From Agathobaculum butyriciproducens (lineage in GTDB: Bacteria; Bacillota; Clostridia; Oscillospirales; Butyricicoccaceae), in the NCBI GenBank assembly GCA_003096535.1, contig QEKJ01000018.1:1-51248 (forward strand): a stretch of 51,248 nt of DNA, written 5' to 3'. The translations under genes were made by a program, and so were the position numbers. The notes below the pieces were generated by a model. The model was given only the letters and a program-made list of their open reading frames with translations, searched no databases and was not told the origin of the DNA. Positions 1,992 through 46,105 of this stretch are shown here, in pieces. The first letter of the stretch is position 1, and each line of letters begins with the position of its first letter.

Positions 1992-2688
1992 AAACCGACC
2001 GCAGATGACGGTTCAGAGCGCGGTAGAGGTCGTGGCGGCCGTTGTTGACGTGGAGCAGGGCGAAAAGGTGCTGCGTATCTATCGTGAGGAACAGGCGCCG
2101 GTGGACTTTGTGTGCATGGCACACGGCACGGCGCGCACGGAAATGCTCGACCTGCTCGGCATCGGTGAAACGGCAAAGGCCATTGTGATGTGTATGGTCA
2201 GCCGTCAGACCGGCGTTCGCCTGCTCAAAAGGCTCGGACGCGAGCTGGAGATGCGATATCCCGGACGCGGAATCGCGTTTGCCATTCCGATTACAGGCAT
2301 TGGTCTGCGGTGGCACAAGCTGCTGACCGCTGCAGACGAGGAGCAAAAGGAGGTCAGCCGGATGCACGAGACAGAGAAGAACGACGGTTTTGACGTTGTA
2401 GCAGTTGTGATGGAGCGCGGCTATACCAACGTGGCGATGGATGCGGCGCGCAAGGCCGGTGCACGCGGCGGCACGGTCATTTCCGCGCGCGGCATTGCGG
2501 AAAATGAGGTCAAGCGGTTTTTCGGTATTGAAATTCAGGCTGAAAAGGAAATCGTGTTCCTCGTGGTGCGAAGCGATGAGAAACAGCAGATTATGACGGC
2601 GCTGATGCAGGCGGTCGGAATGAAGACCCGCAGTCATGGCATTGTGCTGTCAATGCCGCTTTCGGCAGCCATCGGACTGGCGGATTGA
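1984..2688 (+). CDS. tandem PII-like (GlnB-fold) regulatory protein
   Basis: A 234-residue soluble protein with two PII-like ferredoxin folds, at about residues 8-105 and 130-232. Each ends in a similar IGL(R/A) segment after a beta strand. The second copy has the PII hallmark GARGGTVISARG. The start chosen (ATG 1984, after GGAGGG) overlaps the end of the DUF1538 gene, and an upstream in-frame extension from 1924 is out of keeping with that ribosome binding site. PII proteins bind adenine nucleotides and gate membrane transporters, so control of the DUF1538 partner is a reasonable inference. The stop TGA lies at the edge of a dispersed repeat. Confidence 0.85.
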   Translation: MSENRPQMTVQSAVEVVAAVVDVEQGEKVLRIYREEQAPVDFVCMAHGTARTEMLDLLGIGETAKAIVMCMVSRQTGVRLLKRLGRELEMRYPGRGIAFAIPITGIGLRWHKLLTAADEEQKEVSRMHETEKNDGFDVVAVVMERGYTNVAMDAARKAGARGGTVISARGIAENEVKRFFGIEIQAEKEIVFLVVRSDEKQQIMTALMQAVGMKTRSHGIVLSMPLSAAIGLAD

Positions 2689-2885
2689 TAATGGAAAATG
2701 GAGAATGGAAAATAAGCGTCTGACGTTTGCTTTCTGTTCTCCGTTTTTTATTGTGTTATTTGGCGGGAAACGGCGGGACACCATCCCGCTCTGCACAATT
2801 TATCCCGCAGGGGAGCACAGCGTGCTCTCCCGTAACACAAAAGAGAGGAACGCACCCTTCAATTTCCAATTTTCATCTTCACTCT
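2685..2885. repeat. dispersed AATTGARAATGG-type element (copy 1)
   Basis: The left arm, GATTGATAATGG followed by AAAATGGAGAATGG, starts on the PII stop codon. A degenerate right arm, TTCAATTTCCAATTTTCATC, ends near 2880. In between are a T-rich stretch and palindromes (GGCGGGA..TCCCGC, GGAGCACAGCGTGCTCTCC). No gene is seen in 2689-2954. Confidence 0.6.
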
Positions 2886-2954
2886 GATAAAATAGTATGA
2901 TATAATGAGGGCAGTAATTTTCGCAGGGAGAACCCCTGACAGGAGTAGATAACC

Positions 2955-4139
2955 ATGATAAATGAGCACATGATGGATTTAGGCAGCCGCCGTTCGACGA
3001 TCCGCGAGCTGTTCGAGTACGGGAACAGCCGTGCGGCGATCGTTGGCCGCGAGAACGTATTCGATTTCTCGATCGGCAACCCGAACGTACCCGCCCCGGA
3101 GGCCGTTCGTCAGGCGATTTACGCCGAAGCGGCAGGTGATCCGGTTGCACTGCACGGTTATACCTCGGCACAGGGCGCCGCAGACGTGCGAGGCGCACTG
3201 GCGGACAGCCTCAACAAGCGTTTCGGCACGGACTACACCGGCGACAGCCTGTACCTGACTGCAGGCGCGGCAGCCGCGCTCTCTTGTGCGTTCAAGGCGA
3301 TCGTCTGCGAGGGTGACGAGATTATTGTGTTTGCGCCGTATTTCCCGGAATATAAAATGTTCATCGAAAGCGGTGCCGGTGCCAAGTGCGTCATTGTGCC
3401 GCCGTCTATCGCGGATTTTCAGATTGACTTCGGTGCTCTCGAACAGTGCCTGAATGAGCACACCAAGGCGGTCGTTGTTAACTCGCCGAACAATCCGTCC
3501 GGTGCAGTGTACTCCGAGCAGACCATCAAGCGCCTTGCCGACATACTGCGCGATAAGGAGAAGGAATACGGTCACCCGATTTACCTCATTTCGGACGAGC
3601 CGTATCGTGAGATCGTATATGATGGCGTGCAGGTGCCGTTCGTGCCGCATTTCTACGACGATACCATTATCTGCTACTCGTACTCCAAGTCGCTGTCGCT
3701 GCCGGGTGAGCGTATCGGCTATGTGCTCGTGCCGCCGGCAGCCGCCGACAGCAAGGCGCTGTACGCTGCGGTCTGCGGTGCCGGCCGCGCACTCGGTTAT
3801 GTTTGTGCACCGAGTATGTTCCAGCGCGTAGCGGCACGCTGTGCCGACCAGACCAGCGATATTGCGGTCTACCAGACCAACCGCGACCTGCTCTTTAACG
3901 GTCTGACCTCGATGGGGTATCACTGTGTCAAGCCGGACGGCGCGTTTTATCTGTTCCCGCAGACGCTCGAGGCGGACGACCGCGCCTTCAGTGAACGCGC
4001 AAAGAAATATGACCTGCTGGTCGTTCCGGGTGCGGATTTCGGTGCCCCCGGTCATATGCGAATTTCTTACTGTGTGAAAACCGAGACCATCGAGCGTGCG
4101 TTGCCGCTGTTTGAACGACTGGCGAAGGAGTATCGCTGA
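2955..4139 (+). CDS. class I/II PLP-dependent aminotransferase
   Basis: A 394-residue fold-type I aminotransferase. The visible active-site landmarks are NNPSG at 179-183, SDEPY with Asp214 (pyridine nitrogen) and Tyr217, the Schiff-base Lys245 in SYSKSLSLPGERIGY, and a C-terminal substrate-carboxylate Arg in GHMRISYC. It transfers amino groups between amino and keto acids in the cytosol. The exact substrate cannot be read from sequence; an aspartate/aromatic-type enzyme is likely. The start ATG has CAGGAG upstream. It appears to be monocistronic. Confidence 0.92.
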   Translation: MINEHMMDLGSRRSTIRELFEYGNSRAAIVGRENVFDFSIGNPNVPAPEAVRQAIYAEAAGDPVALHGYTSAQGAADVRGALADSLNKRFGTDYTGDSLYLTAGAAAALSCAFKAIVCEGDEIIVFAPYFPEYKMFIESGAGAKCVIVPPSIADFQIDFGALEQCLNEHTKAVVVNSPNNPSGAVYSEQTIKRLADILRDKEKEYGHPIYLISDEPYREIVYDGVQVPFVPHFYDDTIICYSYSKSLSLPGERIGYVLVPPAAADSKALYAAVCGAGRALGYVCAPSMFQRVAARCADQTSDIAVYQTNRDLLFNGLTSMGYHCVKPDGAFYLFPQTLEADDRAFSERAKKYDLLVVPGADFGAPGHMRISYCVKTETIERALPLFERLAKEYR

Positions 4140-43957: not shown

Positions 43958-43998
43958 TAATCTGTGTGAGTATTTGCTCACACCAAAGGAGTTTTATT

Positions 43999-45984
43999 AT
44001 GGACGTGCGTGAGCAGATTACCGCTCTGCGGGAGCAGCTGCGGTATCACAACGAAAAATACTATAACGAGGACGCGCCCGAGATCACCGACTATGAGTAC
44101 GACATGCTGCAGCGTCAGCTTCGCGCGCTCGAGGCCGAGCATCCGGAGATGGCAGACGCGAACTCTCCGACCCAGCGGGTCGGCGGCACGGCGAGCAGCC
44201 GGTTTGCCAAGGTGACGCACGCCTACCCACTCGAAAGCCTGCAGGATGTTTTCTCGTTTGACGAGCTGGGCGAGTTCTATTCCCGTGTGGAGAATGCCGT
44301 CGGACAGGCGGAGTACGTTGTCGAGTACAAGATCGACGGCCTTTCGGTCGCACTGGAGTATGTAGACGGCGAGTTCGTCCGCGGTGCGACACGCGGTGAC
44401 GGTCAGGTGGGCGAGGACGTAACCAAGAACCTCAAAACCATCAAGGACATCCCGAAAAAGCTGGAGAACGCACCGCCGCATCTCATTGTGCGCGGTGAGG
44501 TCTACATGAAAAAGTCCGTGTTCGACGCACTCAACGCCGAGCTGGAGCTGCATGACAAGCCGCTGCTTGCCAATCCGCGCAACGCGGCTGCCGGCTCTCT
44601 GCGGCAGAAGGACAGCAGGATAACGCGCGAGCGCAGGCTGTCCATCTTCTGCTTCAACATTCAGAACAGCGACGAGCTGCCGATGGAAAGCCATGTGCAG
44701 GCGCTCGATTACCTCAAGAGCCTCGGCTTCCCGACAAGCCCGCGCTATCCGGTCTACACCGACCCGCAGGACGTGCAGCGCGAGATTGAGAACATGGGTG
44801 AGACCCGCGGTGAGCTGGATTTCGACATTGACGGTGCTGTTGTCAAGGTCAACTCCTTCGCACAGCGTGAAACGCTCGGCTCGACCGCGAAATTCCCTCG
44901 GTGGGCGGCGGCGTACAAATACCCGCCCGAGGTCAAGCAGACGCTTCTCAAGGATATCGTCATCACGGTGGGACGCACCGGCGTGCTGACACCGAATGCC
45001 GTGCTCGAGCCGGTACGGCTTGCGGGCACCTCGGTGTCCCGCGCAACGCTGCACAACCGCGATTTTATCCGTCAGCTCGATGCCCGCGTGGGCGACATTG
45101 TTTCCGTCCGAAAAGCCGGAGAAATCATTCCGGAGATCATCGGCGTGGAAAAGGACCGGCGCCCGCTGGATTCCGTGCCGTATGAGTTCCCGAAATTCTG
45201 TCCGGTCTGCGGTGCGCCGGTGTACGACGATGAGGACGAGGCGGCTATCCGCTGCACGAGTGCCTCGTGTCCGGCGCAGCTGCTGCGCAACCTGATGCAC
45301 TTTGCGTCGCGTGACGCGATGGACATTGACGGCTGCGGTGAGGGCAACCTGCAGAAGCTGATCGACGCCGGACTGGTCAAGTCGGCGGCTGACCTATACG
45401 ACCTGACGGTCGAGCAGCTGCTGCCGCTCGGCAAAAAGGTGGACGTCTGGGCGAACAATCTTGTCCGCTCGATTGAAGCGAGCAAGACCCGCGACCTGTC
45501 GCGGCTGCTGTTCGCGTTCGGCATTCGGCATGTCGGCCAGAAGGCGGGCCGCATCCTAAGCGACCACTTCGGCTCGCTTGATGCGCTGCTGATTGCGCCG
45601 GTCGAGGAGATGACCGAGATCCGCGACATCGGACAGACCACGGCGGAGAGCATCGCCGCATGGCGTGAGCTGCCGCAGTCGCATACGCTCATCGAGAAGC
45701 TGCGCGCACACGGCGTCAACTTCATCGGTGAAAAGACCGCAAAGAGCGACCTGCTCGCCGGAAAGACCATTGTGGCAACCGGCAGCCTGACGCTCTATAC
45801 CCGCAAGGAGATCAATGATCTGATCGAGTCTCTCGGCGGCAAAGCGGCCGGTTCGGTCTCGAAAAAGACCAGCTATGTCGTCGCAGGCGAGAATGCCGGC
45901 AGTAAGCTGCAGAAGGCGGCAGAGCTGGGAATCCCGGTCTTGACGGAAGAAGAATTCCGCACGATGATAACCAATGCAGAGTAG
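43999..45984 (+). CDS. ligA: NAD-dependent DNA ligase
   Basis: A 661-residue ligase of normal length. Domain Ia (1-60) has [20 protein letters not shown]. The adenylation Lys111 lies in [13 protein letters not shown]. An OB fold follows, then the zinc finger (CPVCG...CTSASCP, about 401-424), helix-hairpin-helix repeats (about 440-575) and a BRCT domain (about 585-661, [18 protein letters not shown]). It seals nicks in replication and repair using NAD. AAAGGAG precedes ATG 43999. The frame is open further upstream, but through the yunB end and the promoter. Confidence 0.96.
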
Positions 45985-45988
45985 GCAT

Positions 45989-46105
45989 AATTGAAAATGG
46001 ATAATTGAAAATGGAAAATGAATGTACGGCGCATAGCGCCGATATTAAATAATCGCGCAAGGCGCGATACCTTAATTCTCCATTATCCATTCTCAATTTT
46101 CAATT
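45989..46105. repeat. dispersed AATTGARAATGG-type element (copy 7)
   Basis: Left arm AATTGAAAATGGATAATTGA, hairpins CGGCGCATAGCGCCG and CGCGCAAGGCGCG with TATTAAATAAT between, right arm CTCCATTATCCATTCTCAAT plus TTTCAATT. This is the cleanest copy; it starts 7 bp after the ligA stop. Confidence 0.85.

Follow-up and report, generated by a model that had tools for sequence, protein, structure and literature searches.

Heptad elements in a contig of Agathobaculum butyriciproducens

The DNA considered here (the window, 51,248 nucleotides at full length) is contig C18 (QEKJ01000018.1) of the 2.81-Mb genome of Agathobaculum butyriciproducens (GCA_003096535.1, labelled G000). It carries seven copies of a mosaic element whose arms are built from AATKGAR heptads, and every copy has the stop codon of a gene within 8 bp of one of its ends. 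The sequence-only reading of the window had described a dispersed palindromic repeat family that begins on stop codons, and this adjacency holds for all seven. Matches to AATTGARAATGG with at most two mismatches number 43 in the window, against 6.1 expected, and in the whole genome AATKGARAATKGAR has 295 exact sites (139 + 156), the reversed pattern having none. The seven elements, and a repeat lying within one of them, are as follows (a slash marks where a stop codon is divided between gene and arm; ORF, open reading frame).

2683..2871: element 1; left arm 2683-2710 and right arm 2858-2871, the latter weak; the upstream ORF has its TGA (2686-2688) inside the arm
16579..16606, + strand: element 2; one arm only, with 4 heptads, immediately after the terminator of a LacI-like gene; its right end is 8 bp from the yqeC stop (other strand) and its left side 30 bp from a stop
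21917..22094: element 3; an arm (21917-21930), then a hairpin module, a further arm (21992-22012), the two-hairpin module (22011-22061) and a right arm reaching 22094; the moaA stop is split TG/A with the arm
24083..24501: element 4; left arm 24083-24117, long centre containing a genome repeat, right arm 24474-24501; the moaB-like stop is split T/AA with the left arm, and the right arm is 5 bp from the selD stop
24174..24398: repeat within element 4, about 180-225 bp, with many copies elsewhere in the genome that are 84-98% identical
30203..30355: element 5; the left arm follows the terminator of a polysaccharide-deacetylase-like gene, whose stop is 44 bp away; the two-hairpin module comes next, then the right arm (30328-30355), which contains the TGA of the kdpE-like gene (30350-30352)
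36668..36811: element 6; left arm containing the TGA of the dacB-like gene (AAT TGA, 36671-36673), right arm ending 34 bp ahead of a pseudouridine synthase gene
45989..46105: element 7; between ligA and gatC (start 46148), with the two-hairpin module; ligA has its own stop TAG (45982-45984), 4 bp before the arm

As had been claimed, a TGA lies within the repeat at the kdpE-like gene, the dacB-like gene and the ORF ending at 2688. The gene names given at the outset fared unevenly: MoaA, SelD, YqeC and LigA exceed the NCBIfam cut-offs, and the MoaB-like protein exceeds a domain cut-off, whereas KdpE and D-Ala-D-Ala carboxypeptidase are the best NCBIfam matches of their genes, yet below cut-offs, and the name PII is not supported for the ORF ending at 2688, which has no match in NCBIfam or Pfam. 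At the Rfam gathering score, the window contains a 5S rRNA and one tRNA, and the element itself has no match.

The anatomy and placement of the element were studied in a sample of 825 kb, 29% of the genome, composed of contig C1 in full, a 100-kb stretch from each of C2 and C4, and the window, which is the stretch that the finding itself had picked out; C1, C2 and C4 were already known to contain elements, and the stretches taken were not positioned by them. Arms were paired into one element if they were at most 450 bp apart. In a typical element, a left arm made up of 2-5 heptads is followed by a centre and then by a right arm in inverted orientation, and among 37 complete elements the centre ranges from 3 to about 430 bp, 10 of them having just 3-16 bp. 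Centres are interchangeable: they can be the two-hairpin module, modules that are also found away from heptads in the sample, or next to nothing. In an alignment restricted to the 14 copies of the two-hairpin centre that score above 33 bits in the sample (weaker matches being excluded), 9 of 12 pairs have, in at least one copy, changed in both partners with the pairing preserved.

The two ends of the element are usually distinguishable. In 28 of the 37 complete elements the outer unit is AATTGA on one arm and AATGGA on the other, a comparison that was not planned beforehand; the remaining combinations are TT (4), GG (4) and AT (1). Opposing heptads of the two arms match at 0.404, versus 0.494 in shuffled arms (1992 of 2000 shuffles at or above the observed value), and the idea of the arms as a single RNA stem was rejected on this basis. 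Unlike outer units and a sub-chance match between arms thus fit two distinct ends rather than a perfect palindrome maintained as a stem.

Position relative to stop codons and terminators

Genes in the sample were called with a home-made procedure, which listed 671 of them; it misses genes (yqeC was taken from the ORF list), and some of the distances derived from it are wrong. Of the 107 arms, 68 face the stop of a gene and 38 the start of one; a single arm is intragenic. Stop-facing arms lie mostly at -13 to +19 from the stop (42/68), with 12 at -2 (T/AA) and 8 at -6 (AATTGA), and none at 20-29 bp, where terminators would be cut. Start-facing arms keep at least 17 bp away from start codons, with one row at -6 in the element-level count. 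Once arms were merged into 64 elements, 60 had a stop-facing side and 38 had the facing stop within 15 bp, compared with 3.1, 18.9 and 15.8 expected under random placement per non-coding base, per gap and per occupied gap, respectively; 38 was reached in 0 of 2000 runs under each of these nulls. The sequence-only reading had named copies with no excess within 15 bp of stops as the result that would speak against it, and the excess is instead confirmed as real. Elements sit close behind stops in either orientation, and the 37 complete ones are distributed over 29 tandem, 8 convergent and no divergent gaps, divergent gaps making up 69 of all 667 gaps in the sample.

Controls that keep each element in its own gap give a more demanding comparison. 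With start guards of 20-80 bp, 26 of the 37 complete elements are within 15 bp of a stop versus 16.7-23.2 expected, and 26 was reached in 0, 1, 43 and 273 of 4000 runs as the guard widens from 20 to 80 bp. Where the gap retains at least 100 bp after excision of the element, 6 of 14 elements are within 15 bp of a stop versus 1.1-1.8 expected (1 to 15 of 4000 runs). These same-gap controls favour targeting to, or retention at, gene 3' ends. A strict count was also made, in which only ORFs of at least 100 codons and stops outside the arm were considered: true stops lie 0-15 bp before 23 of the 107 arms, compared with 6 when the orientation is reversed and 3.9% for random positions. A looser count (95/182, 119/213) includes stops inside arms and was not used.

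A second type of site is found further downstream. Of the stop-facing arms, 19 are located at 25-90 bp, and in 13 of these the 22 bp preceding the arm include a T-run, whereas T-runs occur at 10.3% at matching distances behind 602 element-free gene ends. Most of the spacers fold as strong hairpins, and two of the six remaining arms, at 74 and 76 bp, belong to the interior of composite elements. The element thus sits behind a stop, or behind a terminator where one is kept in front. Several arms behind terminators in the flanks of C1 are preceded by GTGCAGT (e.g., locus L034, about 4454-4460), which is perhaps a further piece of the element end.

It had also been proposed that insertions may survive when they supply a stop, and that the repeats then set the C-terminus. 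Among the 68 stop-facing arms, the stop is wholly in the arm in 10 cases and shared with it in 13 (23/68 in total); in the remaining 45 cases the gene has a stop of its own, in some of them with a terminator before the arm as well. In C1, C2 and C4, 24 genes have an arm at -14 to +2 from the stop; 13 gene tails were searched in four species of the same genus, and the 14 genes with a match in the fetched stretches were compared for their C-termini, leaving out of the counts three partial alignments (C1:6491 in G012, C1:64249 in G017 and C4:14189 in G012). About 10 of the 14 end within 2 residues of most orthologues, and the other four differ by +3 to +4, -4 to -5, +5 and -6 to -9 residues. The dacB-like protein, which ends RN*, mostly stops 2 residues before its 17 relatives (range 0 to 16). 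Two genes have orthologues with a TAA at the same codon, C1:116268 (2/3) and C1:261951 (3/4), so that these stops may be older than the element. Stop supply is rejected as a general cause, since 45 of 68 genes have their own stop and orthologues end nearby, and it is rather a by-product, because relatives without the element mostly end their proteins within 2 residues of the same place. Setting of the C-terminus therefore happens sometimes, with small effect, and of the two alternatives first offered, the action of the element at gene ends, by targeting or retention, is better supported than the survival of stop-supplying insertions.

Other repeats are present in the window. An intergenic stretch (28063-28168) contains three tandem copies of a 33-bp unit (GCAGCGCGGACGGAACTCGCGCAAGGA...), and this module is also found within heptad elements, in either orientation (30286-30325; about 36696-36726). 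A 111-bp piece of the 24174-24398 repeat matches one genome of the same genus at 84%. The spacer between element 7 and gatC (46106-46147) contains AATGGAGGAGAATTGAT, a ribosome site that looks heptad-derived. Finally, a long run of 9/45-bp repeats (26909-27680) lies inside the ORF 26787-27704 and encodes a repetitive protein.

Arrival, spread and possible origins

Related genomes suggest how the element came to be where it is. The spacing between ligA and gatC is 1 bp in all 15 relatives compared and 163 bp here, the difference consisting of the element and new flanks, and the element is absent from the orthologous gene junctions examined in related species. The heptad triplet is found in 7 of 59 relatives searched, with at most 7 hits each versus 159 in G000, and a high heptad copy number in one of the 25 genomes of the genus. 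We infer that the element arrived by insertion, and the 1-bp junction of the relatives, together with the scarcity of the triplet among them, argues for a recent, lineage-specific expansion.

The heptad itself is not confined to this lineage. The triplet was found in at least 115 stretches from genomes of many phyla and in at least 120 stretches of viral contigs. Complete scans of viral contigs for three other heptad patterns returned 56, 34 and 54 stretches, and arrays mixing T and G units (T-G-T) occur in 22 viral contig stretches, versus none when the pattern is reversed. Among 398 sampled genomes of the phylum, 7 contain the triplet, G000 being one of them, and 10 match the reversed control (at most 7 hits each), the only outliers being G000 (144 hits) and G361 (80), a genome from another family with a second heptad expansion. 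Loci L355-L374 of G361, which were selected for holding heptads, include longer arrays of up to 13 units (L373). In these loci, 13 of 33 elements are within 15 bp of a stop versus 1.9 under the per-base null (0 of 2000 runs); the same number was reached in 1 of 2000 runs with the occupied-gap null and in 54 of 2000 with the per-gap null. The strict stop count gives 7/42 in G361 (0 in reverse, 2.9% at random), 26/167 in genome contigs (8 in reverse, 4.5% at random) and 34/198 in viral contigs (19 in reverse, 7.9% at random), where the effect of orientation is weak. The heptad thus occurs across phyla, with stops just upstream commoner than at random. Parabacteroides distasonis provides two examples: strain TSDC17.2-1.1 has an element between an exbB-type and an exbD-type gene, and another record shows a convergent gene pair with both of its stops inside arms. 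The records of this species at L540-L543 are labelled plasmids, and one of them, which carries metK, queA and folK, looks like a piece of chromosome. The centres are not a common part across species: outside G000 there are 3 short matches, and 80 other loci yield no match to the two-hairpin module with an E-value below 0.16.

The interpretation that we prefer, with confidence at about the halfway mark, is that short mosaic elements, non-autonomous and probably mobile, have expanded specifically in this genome and that their insertion is biased to gene 3' ends. Inverted AATKGAR arms around interchangeable centres, with two ends that can usually be told apart, would be recognized and bound by an enzyme supplied in trans, and insertion would take place preferentially behind a stop or a terminator. 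One guess is that an untranslated or just-terminated transcript leaves the DNA open at 3' ends, as an R-loop or a single strand. Purifying selection would then sharpen the pattern, the supply of a TGA or TAA could render insertions in the last codons harmless at the price of a slightly changed C-terminus, and a REP-like effect on translation or decay (REP, repetitive extragenic palindrome) may be added. In a broader version, which we put forward only tentatively, AATKGAR would be the signal at the ends of a cross-phylum class of non-autonomous elements, so far undescribed, whose insertion at gene 3' ends leaves no target duplication and is guided by the termination of translation or transcription itself.

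Several observations weigh against the preferred interpretation. With the 80-bp start guard, the 37 elements together show a weak excess near stops within their own gaps, and when one-armed elements are counted, 4 of 63 occupied gaps are divergent. The evidence for insertion comes from junctions in other, related species. No target-site duplication of 2-9 bp was detected in the 37 complete elements (1352 offset/length tests, best z 3.16), and duplication of TA or of any other 2-9 bp target is rejected by these tests. As for the enzyme, Y1_Tnp (PF01797) has no match in G000, while 5 of 14 control genomes match, G361 not having been searched; reverse transcriptase is absent from both G000 and G361; and IS110-type transposases are present in G000 and in two triplet-free relatives (G018, G012), and not in G361. 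RAYT/IS200, reverse transcriptase and IS110 are thus rejected as a common mobilizer of G000 and G361, with Y1 searched in G000 only. Lastly, 12 pairs of arms are 600-4500 bp apart, and no transposase is among the 10 enclosed proteins scanned; larger autonomous copies were rejected as well, as 5 of these 10 ORFs belong to ordinary host or phage families and 5 have no match.

Other explanations have to be considered. Insertion could be random, with survivors only behind stops and terminators since an insertion elsewhere breaks a gene, promoter, ribosome site or terminator. The distance of at least 17 bp kept by start-facing arms (one row at -6), the lack of complete elements in divergent gaps and the empty interval at 20-29 bp from stops, where terminators would be cut, are all expected from such a filter. 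However, where at least 100 bp of gap remains, a position within 15 bp of the stop is still taken by 6 of 14 elements, versus 1.1-1.8 expected with start guards of 20-80 bp, and clustering right behind T-runs is unnecessary for harmlessness, so that we consider this scenario a possible but rather unlikely one. It is more doubtful that the element is a working 3' end module, comparable to E. coli REP, in which a stop-proximal hairpin tunes translation or mRNA decay under positive selection. REPs less than 16 nt behind stops lower translation, according to an earlier study as reported in the part of PMC12306157 used here, and the two-hairpin centre keeps its pairing (9 of 12 pairs with changes on both sides, 14 copies). 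Yet opposing heptads match less than they do after shuffling, so that the arms are not kept as a stem, 10 of 37 centres have merely 3-16 bp, and relatives manage without the element at the genes compared.

Replication slippage in place, with no mobile element, is an improbable origin for the heptads. In most of the genomes of one survey, the commonest long repeats are heptanucleotides, and a slippage model has been proposed for them (Mrazek et al., as cited in the portion of PMC4679880 drawn on here), and viral contigs contain other heptad patterns too (56, 34 and 54 stretches); the mixed T-G-T arrays in 22 viral contig stretches versus 0 for the reversed control, the paired inverted arms with shared centres and the high copy number in just one of 25 genomes of the genus nevertheless speak against it. 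As to an artefact of gene calling, whereby ORFs would end where an arm supplies stops and arms would only seem linked to stops, positions -6, -9 and -13 do correspond to stops inside the arm; but the strict count of true stops (23/107 versus 6 in reverse and 3.9% at random) and orthologues ending at or near the same residues make it hardly credible.

Comparison with known repeats and mobile elements

The biased, probably mobile element proposed above has parallels among bacterial repeats. The REPs and bacterial interspersed mosaic elements (BIMEs) of enterobacteria are defined by a RAYT (Y1 transposase) partner gene and by GTAG at the foot of a hairpin of 20-40 nt. They are intergenic, mosaic and present in high copy, with inverted parts, and a share of them lie at most 15 nt behind stop codons, as the sections of PMC12306157 consulted describe. 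The excess close behind stops is common to both (38 of 64 elements within 15 bp here), but in the present element the ends are AATKGAR arrays instead of a GTAG hairpin, there is no Y1_Tnp (RAYT) gene, and the arms are unmatched as a stem.

The YPALs of Yersinia often touch stop codons. Also known as RU-2, they are short, palindromic and intergenic, are expressed with upstream genes ('co-translated' in the review), adjoin dyad symmetry at their targets, and are 168 bp long with target duplications of 3-26 bp, according to the available sections of PMC2229807. The likeness is partial, as 13 of 19 arms at 25-90 bp from stops follow a T-run and most spacers fold strongly; the difference, by description only, is that no 2-9 bp duplication is found here and that heptads go unmentioned for YPALs in those sections (PMC2229807).

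TAACTGA heptamer repeats form intergenic arrays in distant phyla and in one orientation provide stops in all three frames (MacGregor 2015, PMC4679880). The portion of that paper considered here places them mostly just upstream of starts, with 13 sets overlapping an upstream stop codon, and describes nearly all as direct repeats and one as indirect, with no mention of a centre flanked by inverted arms. The two families have in common the length of the unit, the property of stopping frames and the spread across phyla, whereas the TAACTGA unit rotates to AACTGAT compared with AATKGAR here, and lies mostly upstream of starts rather than behind stops. Miniature inverted-repeat transposable elements (RUP, ERIC, Correia; BrickBuilt) are short, non-autonomous and mostly intergenic, with inverted ends (PMC2229807 and PMC10969869, in the parts consulted). 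The present element is likewise short and probably non-autonomous, with inverted heptad arms, though its ends differ in 28 of 37 cases, and it has neither a 2-9 bp target duplication nor a parent transposase among the 10 proteins scanned. No paper on an AATKGAR heptad family was found in the open literature among the matches listed, subscription journals being mostly outside this search.

If gene 3' ends are true targets, the element would follow a safe-site rule independent of a fixed target sequence, and its enzyme would be of interest for harmless insertion of DNA behind genes. Since elements alter the last residues of proteins and the spacing of operons (from 1 to 163 bp between ligA and gatC), they also provide natural experiments on what follows a stop codon, and because the link extends across phyla, the question could be tested in species that can be cultured, Parabacteroides distasonis among them. 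The sequence-only reading had not included the second site at terminators, the two types of end, the mosaic make-up of the centre or the cross-phylum spread. In sum, the element works like REP or YPAL, is neither by definition, and differs from each known kind in at least one feature taken as defining; what is new here are the two end types, the lack of a 2-9 bp target duplication, and a cross-phylum heptad with stops just upstream more often than at random.

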